This document shows positions 51,432 through 56,200 of a stretch of 64,000 nt of DNA, in pieces. The stretch covers positions 248,001 through 312,000 of the forward strand of contig WGMS01000001.1 of the NCBI GenBank assembly GCA_016124935.1, in the 5' to 3' direction. Both the position numbers and the translations under genes were made by a program. Position 1 is the stretch's first letter. Each line of letters begins with the position of its first letter. The stretch is from a bacterium (GTDB lineage: Bacteria > Cyanobacteriota > Vampirovibrionia > Obscuribacterales > Obscuribacteraceae). A model generated the notes under the pieces. That model searched no databases, had not been told where the DNA came from, and saw only the letters and a program-made list of their open reading frames with translations.

Positions 51432-53690
51432 TTATATGGTCGACGGCAATCTGATCTCGGTCACCTCACCATTGAGATCGAGAAAGTACTTTCGCTCCGG
51501 AGCGATATAGCCATAGTTGACACAATCTACTCTAGGAACACCGTCTGAGACCGTAATCAGCCACTCGTTGTAGCCTTCGTTCTCGTACTCGAAGCTGATA
51601 CCATCATCTTCAAGGAAAAGACCGATACCATCTCCGAATCCGAAGCATTTGAATGTAACCGGAGCTTGCTGAAATTCCCTTGTCGCTTGAATTACCGGAA
51701 CCATGGGTATTATCGAACCTACCCTTGCAAAGGCAGGCACTGTACCCAGATCTAGCTCGACTCGAGTATATTTACCGCCTTCGATAACCGCACCACCTTC
51801 CAGAGGAATCCACTCGCCCCGGGGGAAATAGACTACTCTCGAACGATGACCACGCTTTGTCACCGGTGCCACCATAATGTCATCGCCGAAAAGAAACTGA
51901 TCGTCGATGTCATAGACATTCTGATCATCCGGATAGGACCAGAACAGCGGTCTTATCAAAGGGGCACCGTTTCTTGCATGCTCGAAAAACAATCGCTTGA
52001 TATAAGGCAGAAGCCGGTAGCGCATTCCAACCAGATGACGAATTCTCGCTTCTGTCTCTTCGCCGAAGACCCAGGGCTCCTGAACCACTCCCAGCATACT
52101 GGAATGATTGCGAAAGAATGGATAGAAAATGCCCAGTTCATACCAGCGTGTCAAAAGCTCTGCCGAGCAGTCGTCTCCGAAGCCACCGACATCCACCCCG
52201 GTAAACGGCACTCCGCTGAGACCCATATTGATAAGCATCGGAATACTGAGGGCAAGGTGCTCCCACCAGGACATATTGTCCCCGAGCCAGACGGCAGAAT
52301 AACGCTGCACCCCGGCATAACCGGAGCGCGTCAAAACGAAGGGTCTTTCATCGGGTCTCAGAGCCATTAATCCCTCGAAGCTCGCCCGGGCCATCTGAAA
52401 ACCATAGAGATTTCGGACTTCAAAATGACCGACCTTCCCCTCGGGCAGTGCCTGCATGAACATCTGTCTGTCTTCAGGGGGCAACTCTTTCGACCGGGGC
52501 GGCATCGGACAGGGAGAATCGATTAAACAAGGCTCGTTCATGTCGTTCCAGACACCGGCTATGTTGTTGTCAACGAAAAATCCGTGCTGGGCAGACCACC
52601 AGACCCGGACGTCATGACGCAGGAAATCGGGAAAAACGCTGGGTCCCGGCCAGACCTTGCCGAGGAAAGGACGTTGATCTCCACGCCTCACAAAAAAGTC
52701 TCGCTTTTTACCGTCGGCATAGACAGAGAACTTCTCCTCTTTTTTGACACCGGGATCAAGGATGCATGTGGTCTTGAGACCGATAGAATCTAATTCGTCG
52801 ATAACTTGTTTGAAGTCGGGGAAGCGCTCTTTAGAATAGGTAAAGACTCGATATTCATCCATATAGTCGATATCGAGAACCAGGCAGTCGCAGGGGATTT
52901 CAGATTCCCGCATTTTCTTGCCCACGGCAAGCAGTGTCTCCTGGTCGGGATAGCTCCAGCGCGACTGATGATGCCCAAGAGCCCAATCGGGAGGAATCTT
53001 GGAACGTCCGGTCAGGGCTGTGTAGGCCGCTATCAAATCAGGTAGACAATCGGTCTCCATGACATAGAGGCTCCAGCCACGACGGGAGAGAAGATCGACA
53101 ACGCCTCTATTATTCAGCTCTTCATCAAGACTCCAGCTCTGCCAGGCAGGTGAGTCGAGAAAGATACCATGATACTGATTACGGTGCCAATTGGCTATCA
53201 CCAGAAACGGTATCGACACGTACATCGTGTCGAGGGAAGGGATATGAAGATTATCCGAATAATTGAAGAGTGTGTGGCGACGCCCTCTCAAATTGACATC
53301 TGAAAGCCTCTCACCAAGGGCCAAACACTGCGCCCTTTCCTCCAGGTCGAATCCGACTCTGAAATGATCCTCGGCCAACTGCTTGAATGAGAGCTTCAAA
53401 GGAAGCGCCGTTTCTTCTATCGAGCCTAAGTGCTTAAATTCTTCCTTCTCGGTAATCGCAAAAGAGATAGGCGGCTCGCCATCGGCCAGAGGAGAGACAC
53501 CCAGACGAAGAACCCTCACCCCTTCTACAAAGCGTTCTGCCAGGGAGCATTTTCCCGAGAATATATCCTTGTCGAGCTTGAGCCAGAGCTCCTCTCTGGT
53601 CTTGAGATTGCGTGCTTCGAGCCAATCCGGCTTCTCTTGCGTCTTTTTCAATTGCTTCTTCTCCGCCCGACTTCCAACCAAGACAGTCAA
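51432..53690 (-). CDS. Glycoside hydrolase family 31 alpha-glucosidase
   Basis: DYMDEYRVFTYSKERFPD, GVWNDMNEPCLID nucleophile motif, RSGYAGVQRYSAVWLGDNMSWWEHL acid/base region. Confidence 0.95.
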   Translation of the reverse strand: MTVLVGSRAEKKQLKKTQEKPDWLEARNLKTREELWLKLDKDIFSGKCSLAERFVEGVRVLRLGVSPLADGEPPISFAITEKEEFKHLGSIEETALPLKLSFKQLAEDHFRVGFDLEERAQCLALGERLSDVNLRGRRHTLFNYSDNLHIPSLDTMYVSIPFLVIANWHRNQYHGIFLDSPAWQSWSLDEELNNRGVVDLLSRRGWSLYVMETDCLPDLIAAYTALTGRSKIPPDWALGHHQSRWSYPDQETLLAVGKKMRESEIPCDCLVLDIDYMDEYRVFTYSKERFPDFKQVIDELDSIGLKTTCILDPGVKKEEKFSVYADGKKRDFFVRRGDQRPFLGKVWPGPSVFPDFLRHDVRVWWSAQHGFFVDNNIAGVWNDMNEPCLIDSPCPMPPRSKELPPEDRQMFMQALPEGKVGHFEVRNLYGFQMARASFEGLMALRPDERPFVLTRSGYAGVQRYSAVWLGDNMSWWEHLALSIPMLINMGLSGVPFTGVDVGGFGDDCSAELLTRWYELGIFYPFFRNHSSMLGVVQEPWVFGEETEARIRHLVGMRYRLLPYIKRLFFEHARNGAPLIRPLFWSYPDDQNVYDIDDQFLFGDDIMVAPVTKRGHRSRVVYFPRGEWIPLEGGAVIEGGKYTRVELDLGTVPAFARVGSIIPMVPVIQATREFQQAPVTFKCFGFGDGIGLFLEDDGISFEYENEGYNEWLITVSDGVPRVDCVNYGYIAPERKYFLDLNGEVTEIRLPSTI

Positions 53691-53714: not shown

Positions 53715-55436
53715 CTATTTGACTTCGCTCTCTCTGGAAACAGCCGATCTCAACCGGGCCAAATCAAGCCTGGCCTGGGTTATTCTTTTGTCGTTGGCTT
53801 CAATATCGGTGCCGGCGCCGGCACCGGAAACATCCAGAAACTTTTCCAGCGCCAATACCGCTCCTTCTTGATCCTCAGTTTTCTCCAGCGCTCTTGCCAA
53901 CATGAAGTAGCCTTCGGGGGAATCTGGCCCCAGGTCGAGGACCTGGCGAAAAGCAGCCTGGGCTTCATTATTGGACCCTCTTGCCAGCAGCAGGGTACCC
54001 AGGTTCATAAAAGAGGTCCACGAGTTCTGATCGAGCAAGACCGCCTCATGGGCATGTTCAATGGCTCGATCGAGTTTGCCCTGATCTCGATAAGCGTAAC
54101 TCAGCCTATCATGAAGCTCCGCGCTTCTTGGATAGTCGACGAGCAGGTCGAGCAACAGTTTCAGATTGACACTCTTCGAACTCTTGTCGGCGGCAGCGCT
54201 CTCGGCAATGCCAAAAACGGCATCGATATTGCGATGATCGAGATCGTAGGCTTTGCGGAAATAAATGGAACCATCTTCATTGTCCTCGGTCAGTGCGTTG
54301 GCCAGTTGAGAACAATAAATTGAGTCATAAGGATTTCCGACCACGGCAGCCTTAAAATAATCGCTAGCCTTATTCCATTCTTGACGCCGGGCATAGACAT
54401 TACCCTTAAGATAATCTACCAGGGGTAGATTGGCGGATGGCCTGATTGAAGACAATAGACTGAGTGCCTGCATCGACTTGCCGTAGGTCAGAGCCGAACG
54501 AGCCTGACCGCAGACACCGACCACGTTCTCAAAAGAGCTGACCACAGCCGGTTTCTCTGTTTTTGAGCGCGGCTTGCTGAGAAGATCAATCTTTCTGGTG
54601 CGAGCCGAGCCGTAATAGACCGGCGTCTGGATCTTGCAACCCCGACAGTCTTTGACCGTGGAGCGAACGGTACCGTCGTGAGCAAATCGGAATAGGTCAT
54701 CAAGATTTTTTCCCTCATCCGCCGCCTTTAAAGCTCTTTCCAGGCTGTCCGAAAAATAAGTACCCCAGGTAGGTTGGTTCTTCTTACTGGATGAGATGAA
54801 AGCGAAATTATCACCCAGGCAAGCTGCTTCGACGGAGACATTGTAGACTCCGAATCTGGTCCTGGCACCTGACACCATTTGTGGTGCCCCAGTAAACAAG
54901 GTCTGTGCCACCAAAACCACATCTTTAGCCCCGACCTTCTCTTTGACACGCTTGACCAGGTCGTCTACCGAAATAGAGGTGGAGAAGAAGTTGTCCAGAT
55001 CAGTGTCATAGGTCAAAAGATAAACCTGACCGTTCTCAGCAGGAAAACAGAGCGTACTGAGAAAGATAAACACAAGGTCGTCCTTGCCGGCCACTCTACC
55101 CAACCATTTATCTCCCAGGGACTGAAGAATGGCGTCGCGGGAAGCGGCGGCATCAGTAAGTTCGAGCACGGACTCTTTCTCGAAAGAGGCTTTCTCGACC
55201 AGCAATCGGGCCAGATCGAGAGCCGATTGGTCCAGCTTGAGATTGCTTCCAAGCCGGCTCTCGTCGAAACGATGAAGGCCGATGACCACCGCCCACTTTC
55301 TTGCGTAGGCACCTGTTCCTATCTTCTCCAGGGACAGCTCTTTCTCTGTCGCCCGGGCAGGTCCTGAAACCGATGCAATCAACAGAAGCAGCACAGGAAG
55401 GAGAATCCACGGCGTCGAAAGCTTTGAAATATTCAC
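53715..55436 (-). CDS. Caspase-like (C14-fold) pseudo-enzyme fused to TPR repeats
   Basis: KWAVVIGLHRFDESRLGSNLKLDQSALDLARLLVEKASFEKESVLELTDAAASRDAILQSLGDKW...DDLVFIFLSTLCFPAENGQVYLLTYDTD...ISVDDLVKRV...DVVLVAQTLFTG, followed by C-terminal TPRs. Confidence 0.78.
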   Translation of the reverse strand: MNISKLSTPWILLPVLLLLIASVSGPARATEKELSLEKIGTGAYARKWAVVIGLHRFDESRLGSNLKLDQSALDLARLLVEKASFEKESVLELTDAAASRDAILQSLGDKWLGRVAGKDDLVFIFLSTLCFPAENGQVYLLTYDTDLDNFFSTSISVDDLVKRVKEKVGAKDVVLVAQTLFTGAPQMVSGARTRFGVYNVSVEAACLGDNFAFISSSKKNQPTWGTYFSDSLERALKAADEGKNLDDLFRFAHDGTVRSTVKDCRGCKIQTPVYYGSARTRKIDLLSKPRSKTEKPAVVSSFENVVGVCGQARSALTYGKSMQALSLLSSIRPSANLPLVDYLKGNVYARRQEWNKASDYFKAAVVGNPYDSIYCSQLANALTEDNEDGSIYFRKAYDLDHRNIDAVFGIAESAAADKSSKSVNLKLLLDLLVDYPRSAELHDRLSYAYRDQGKLDRAIEHAHEAVLLDQNSWTSFMNLGTLLLARGSNNEAQAAFRQVLDLGPDSPEGYFMLARALEKTEDQEGAVLALEKFLDVSGAGAGTDIEANDKRITQARLDLARLRSAVSRESEVK

Positions 55437-55459: not shown

Positions 55460-56200
55460 TCAAGCGCCCGGTAGAATCTTCTCGATACCGCGCGAGATAC
55501 TCTTCTCCCCGGAATATCCGATAGCATAGTCTACAACTTCGCCATCGGCATTCAAGAAAATAACGGTGGGTATGGGACTAATTTCATATTGATCCACCAT
55601 CTTCTGATTCTTGGGATCATCCACATCGACTCGCATAAAATGCACCTTGTCGCCATAACGCTGAGAGATAGTGCCCATATCCTGCTCCAGCTTCTTACAG
55701 GGCTGACACCAGCTCGCATAAAAATCAATGACTGTCGGAGTAGGAGCTTTCCCCGGTGCGCCTCTATCTTTAGAGAACCCGAAAAGAGACGCCAGGAAAC
55801 GAGTCGCAGCACCGGTCCGCGGCTTGATATAGTCGGCAGGGACCTTCATTATCTCCTGATTGGCCTGTTGAGAATAGGTCGAGCCCCGACCGAGCCGGAT
55901 GGCAATTCTCAGGTGCTTACGGGCATTTCGGTAGTCTTTTTTGCGGGAATAACAGACTCCACTGTAATAATGATAAGCTGCCGGCTGAAGCCTGGATTTT
56001 TGGGCTTTCAGCGAATCGAGGGCTTTATCGAACTGCGATGCTTTGATCATCGCCTCTATCTTCGAAGCAGAAGATACGGAAGATATGGGAGAATGGGTCT
56101 TGGCCGCCACCATGGTGCCCTGGATGCTGAAACCCAGAGACGCCATCACGGAAAGCAAAACTAGTCGTACTAGTTGCTTGTGGAACTTCAAAACCTTCAT
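55460..56200 (-). CDS. Secreted TPR-thioredoxin fusion
   Basis: Signal region, TPR-like helices, then VIDFYASWCQPCKKLEQDMGTISQRYGDKVHFMRVDVDDPKNQKMVDQYEISPIPTVIF. Confidence 0.9.
   Translation of the reverse strand: MKVLKFHKQLVRLVLLSVMASLGFSIQGTMVAAKTHSPISSVSSASKIEAMIKASQFDKALDSLKAQKSRLQPAAYHYYSGVCYSRKKDYRNARKHLRIAIRLGRGSTYSQQANQEIMKVPADYIKPRTGAATRFLASLFGFSKDRGAPGKAPTPTVIDFYASWCQPCKKLEQDMGTISQRYGDKVHFMRVDVDDPKNQKMVDQYEISPIPTVIFLNADGEVVDYAIGYSGEKSISRGIEKILPGA

Follow-up and report, generated by a model that had tools for sequence, protein, structure and literature searches.

What can a caspase-like protein do for a bacterium when both of its catalytic residues have been replaced? The question is raised by a gene on the minus strand of the window, by which we mean the whole stretch of 64,000 nucleotides that was analysed (Table 1).

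Gene and domain organisation

The gene begins with a GTG codon and runs for 573 codons without an internal stop, and is thus a real open reading frame. The amino-terminus of its product (MNISKLSTPWILLPVLLLLIASVSGPARA) is hydrophobic and ends in SGPARA; judged by eye from these residues, the protein is putatively exported. The TPRs announced for the carboxy-terminus in a preliminary description of this DNA are indeed present (TPR_2 match, 1.9e-14), and the AlphaFold model shows them as a helical array running from residue 297 to about residue 540. They follow directly on the p20 domain, and no p10 domain was reported by a scan run without a p10 profile.

Table 1. Features of the pseudo-caspase locus, in positions of the window.
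Feature	Positions	Strand	Basis
Pseudo-caspase-TPR gene, 573 aa	53715..55436	-	ORF reading, Pfam, AlphaFold
Putative Sec signal peptide, aa 1-30 (...ASVSGPARA)	55347..55436	-	sequence inspection; low pLDDT aa 1-40
Caspase-like p20 domain, aa 45-290	54567..55304	-	paralogue match, alignment, fold match, NCBIfam
Codon of L129 (catalytic His position)	55050..55052	-	alignment to HC-intact caspases
Codon of L180 (catalytic Cys position); Q178 in place of S1 Asp	54897..54899	-	alignment
CxxC (C264-R-G-C267), kept in own subclade and in HC-intact relic L012	54636..54647	-	alignment columns
TPR array, aa 297-540	53817..54548	-	Pfam, AlphaFold model
Putatively exported thioredoxin-TPR protein (WCQPC), between hydrolase and pseudo-caspase	55460..56200	-	Pfam/NCBIfam, locus comparison
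Putatively exported alpha/beta-hydrolase, PF12146 E 2.4e-43 (GESMGG, D, EHLI)	56214..57236	-	Pfam, motifs
GH31 glycosidase, no obvious signal peptide, 24 bases downstream of pseudo-caspase	51432..53690	-	Pfam, locus comparison

Caspase fold and catalytic residues

The caspase homology of the protein is well above chance. A paralogue from the same genome that retains the His-Cys dyad (HC-intact; G000:C22) matches it with an E-value of 3e-31 and 36% identity over residues 46-285. The NCBIfam caspase model NF047832 matches residues 48-250 (1.1e-6), with a score of 28.3 bits that lies under the cut-off of 140, so that the protein is not classed as an EACC1-associated caspase (system 4 of Kaur et al.). 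The Pfam caspase model does not match the protein itself and matches 26 of 39 family members. Searching PDB sequences with the p20 domain alone gave nothing useful, and the TPRs dominated the results of a profile search, so folds were compared instead. The AlphaFold model, made with 38 relatives, has a pLDDT of 89.5, rising to 92.7 when the p20 domain is modelled alone. The best PDB match of the p20 model is MALT1 (E 2.6e-12, TM about 0.7); further matches are caspases 6, 7 and 9, bacterial GSU0716, metacaspase 9 and legumain. The caspase or metacaspase layout proposed in the preliminary description is thus borne out by the paralogue, by the alignment and by the fold matches, as is its view that the fold has outlived the dyad.

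The catalytic positions were located by alignment to 49 HC-intact caspases encoded in the same genome or in related ones, all 49 of which contain both His and Cys. The HG of their S-[ST]-H-G motif aligns with L129-C130, and D-x-C-[HYN]-S-G aligns with Q178-T179-L180-F181-T182-G183. Both catalytic residues are thus leucines, glutamine 178 occupies the place of the S1-pocket aspartate and C130 that of the glycine after the histidine; the two motifs had been correctly placed, and correctly called lost, beforehand. An alternative His/Cys pair, which would have spoken against that earlier view, was sought in the alignment columns and rejected, since none is conserved: no histidine is invariant in the subclade of our protein, and the only family-wide His and Cys, at positions 89 and 154, are both absent from it. 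C130 is conserved within the subclade. With the His-Cys dyad of its caspase-type p20 domain substituted, the protein belongs to the pseudo-orthocaspases and not to the catalytically active members of peptidase family C14. The best reading is that its p20 domain keeps the caspase fold and cannot cleave peptides.

Family, dyad variation and selection

Relatives were sought in 60 related genomes and in a named genome collection, and turned up in a single family of genomes only; most of the records that bear a name are Candidatus Obscuribacterales, Obscuribacter or Melainabacteria, and a few have generic or other names. The lineage is generally regarded as non-photosynthetic. Most of the genomes are incomplete metagenome assemblies, and the reading frames of the relatives were read from stop to stop, which leaves their exact start sites uncertain. 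One clade holds 62 members (support 98/100 in a 56-row tree, SH-aLRT 100 in a 111-row tree from which the dyad columns had been left out). The family counts exclude two proteins on long branches, L010 and L171, the former not being placed in the clade.

Among the 61 members aligned with confidence, a single one (L012, from genome G013) has His-Cys, while the other 60 have lost one or both residues; the loss suspected from one sequence is therefore conserved among its relatives. These 60 show 16 combinations: S/A (17), H/P (9), S/G and E/K (5 each), Q/S, Q/P and N/C (4 each), N/A (3), L/C (2) and seven singletons, counts that are not independent events, as the members are related by descent. 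The Tyr-Ser and Phe-Ser dyads of the published groups, which mark subgroups and do not define the pseudo-orthocaspase class, are absent from the 16, our protein being Leu-Leu. The tree requires the dyad to have changed state at least 22 times, and in conservation within the clade its two columns come 221st and 207th among 245. Beside them, F131-P132 and G183 are invariant, the flanking FP and SG being fixed. Our protein shares 46% identity with its nearest relative, and the 21 close pairs used for dN/dS all come from the larger subclade, sister to its own. Over these pairs, the median dN/dS is 0.063 for the p20 domain and 0.068 for the TPRs, so that the pseudo-caspases of the larger subclade are not dying genes. 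Judged by its sequences, the family is a maintained non-enzyme.

The genome of our protein also encodes nine HC-intact caspase paralogues, the active-type relatives that the preliminary description thought worth looking for, a second dead member of the family (L041, Ser/Ala) and one unrelated dead caspase. The latter (L010:1267-2781, at G000:C1:54560-56074, outside the window) has the dyad Arg/Ser and a carboxy-terminal TonB domain (PF13103, 3e-9).

The neighbouring hydrolase and DUF4384

Enough upstream sequence was available at 57 family loci, and at 56 of them the family gene is preceded, on its own strand, by a PF12146-type alpha/beta-hydrolase gene. The exception is L123; L015, where the contig end falls inside the DUF4384 part, was not counted. 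The hydrolase is directly upstream of the pseudo-caspase or one small gene away, and the stop-to-stop gap between the two is often 3 bases, or there is a short overlap. Its nucleophile (GESxGG) and histidine (EHL[IL]) motifs are kept wherever that region is covered; six hydrolases that first-pass motif counts gave as non-intact turned out on inspection to contain both. By comparison, 6 of 45 HC-intact caspases have such a hydrolase within 3 kb, and four of these owe it to a nearby pseudo-caspase module, which leaves L172 and L157. At L172 (L172:7219-11075, G000:C14), an HC-intact caspase-TPR gene adjoins a hydrolase whose serine is replaced by alanine (GEAMGG), a live caspase with a dead hydrolase and so the reverse of our arrangement. 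Divergent from the hydrolase operon in the window, a putative membrane protein of 563 residues is encoded at 57376-59067 on the plus strand, and Pfam gives no match for it at E 1.

Hydrolases linked to the larger subclade have a carboxy-terminal DUF4384 domain, and most pseudo-caspase-linked hydrolases are fused in this way. On the hydrolase tree the fusion arose once, and the fused form occurs only in the pseudo-caspase-linked clade; the three fused hydrolases that are not directly upstream of a pseudo-caspase are one gene off, in tandem. At the HC-intact family member (L012/L056), DUF4384 is a separate gene between hydrolase and caspase. A separate DUF4384 gene is also found beside HC-intact caspase-TPR genes (L070, L125), and L126 and L053 are examples of other caspases to which the domain is fused. 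This distribution suggests, although it does not prove, that DUF4384 brought caspase and hydrolase together.

Our protein's own hydrolase lacks DUF4384, as do the other loci of its subclade. In all six loci of this subclade, the hydrolase gene is followed by the thioredoxin-TPR gene and then by the pseudo-caspase; the GH31 gene comes next in most of them, adjoining the pseudo-caspase, and is probably not part of the module. A CxxC after the p20 domain is likewise present in all six. A strict linkage between thioredoxin and CxxC was considered; L012 makes it less likely, since it has a CxxC but no thioredoxin gene beside it. Hydrolase-thioredoxin pairs of this type also occur without a pseudo-caspase (in G007, G018, G021, G022 and G027), so the partnership is optional in this subclade and the hydrolase does not depend on it everywhere. 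In a G004 member of the lineage (L171), the TPRs have been lost.

Possible function

Since the family is almost always encoded beside an intact hydrolase, the pseudo-caspase is probably the non-catalytic partner of that enzyme. On balance, we favour the reading that our protein is an exported pseudo-orthocaspase-TPR adaptor of the upstream alpha/beta-hydrolase. The p20 domain and the TPR superhelix would together serve as a platform for binding the hydrolase, either holding it or regulating it, the serine hydrolase providing the chemistry and the dead caspase the recognition or scaffolding. The fold, the dyad loss, the purifying selection in the sister clade and the near-invariant gene pairing are the observed parts of this proposal; we infer that the protein is exported, that the two partners interact physically and which way the regulation runs. 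Of the "secreted scaffold or decoy" in the preliminary description, the scaffold fits, while the decoy has no support beyond analogy; the conserved hydrolase, which is the best clue to function, had been missed there.

How the pairing arose can be put forward only tentatively. A unit of caspase-TPR and DUF4384 may have captured the hydrolase, DUF4384 being at first a separate gene (as at L056) and then fused to the hydrolase in a single event. With activity supplied by the hydrolase, the caspase site would have become dispensable and eroded repeatedly, ending in a dedicated exported hydrolase-pseudocaspase complex peculiar to the Obscuribacterales.

The main rival, which we consider unlikely, is that the dead domain would associate with active paralogues and set the activity of these HC-intact caspases, by analogy with the action of FLIP(L) on caspase-8 (PMC7586951). 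That human pseudo-caspase is likewise a dead caspase alongside active paralogues, of which our genome has nine; however, it is an intracellular animal protein with no TPR or hydrolase partner. C14 hits number 3-25 in the 28 family genomes that have a pseudo-caspase and 0-5 in the 8 that do not, 36 genomes in all (Mann-Whitney p 3e-5), but these counts take in some pseudo members and genome size differs as strongly between the same groups (p 9e-5). An HC-intact caspase does lie near the pseudo-caspase operon, often divergently, at L125, L067, L070, L073 and L140; yet such linkage is seen in a minority of loci, our own not among them, whereas hydrolase linkage is nearly universal. Several of these neighbouring caspases are divergent with a separate DUF4384 gene, and at L067 a protein kinase gene is also nearby.

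It is improbable that the protein is a client or partner of the thioredoxin encoded next to it and is under redox control, with C264-C267 switching the conformation of the scaffold: intervening thioredoxin gene and CxxC do coincide in all six subclade loci, but L012 and the hydrolase-thioredoxin pairs without a pseudo-caspase mean that the traits are not strictly linked. A decaying relic without function is less probable still; the dyad was lost through many substitutions and the G004 relative is truncated, but the 573-codon frame is intact, dN/dS is near 0.06 in the sister clade, F131-P132 are new invariant residues and the gene pairing is conserved. An enzyme of caspase fold whose active site has moved, to which the conserved C130 might point, is very improbable given the missing invariant histidine, the lost S1 aspartate and the absence of H89 and C154.

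Comparison with known systems

Bacterial pseudo-orthocaspases have been described by Klemencic et al. 2019 (PMC6426788), including Phe-Ser variants with carboxy-terminal TPRs in Rhizobiales. Like these, our protein has a p20 domain with a substituted dyad followed by TPRs; unlike them, it is Leu-Leu, its family shows 16 non-HC states instead of one fixed pair, and the family is tied to a putatively exported alpha/beta-hydrolase. In the VMAP (MoxR-vWA) conflict systems of Kaur et al. 2020 (PMC7159879), the caspase domain is always accompanied by an alpha/beta-hydrolase gene, as it nearly always is here, and about 70% of effector-position caspase domains are inactive. In contrast to those systems, the proteins of our family appear to be exported and have a TPR architecture, and no MoxR, vWA or VMAP gene was found among the genes scanned around the pseudo-caspase in the window and around L041. 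SyOC, a Synechocystis pseudo-orthocaspase whose deletion raised oxidative-stress tolerance (PMC7889975), is also a dead orthocaspase from a related lineage, a likeness by description. The PADLOC anti-phage models match neither the pseudo-caspase nor the thioredoxin or the hydrolase. TPR pseudo-orthocaspases and alpha/beta-hydrolase-caspase pairs are each known already, from separate publications; in the open literature searched, we found no paper on the exported hydrolase-pseudo-caspase pairing or on Obscuribacter caspases.

The locus bears on why bacteria keep dead caspases. In one lineage it brings together dozens of dead members, the relic L012 with its dyad intact, HC-intact paralogues encoded in the same genomes and a conserved candidate partner, which makes the partner hypothesis directly testable, and it extends the published association of caspases with alpha/beta-hydrolases to proteins that appear to be exported.
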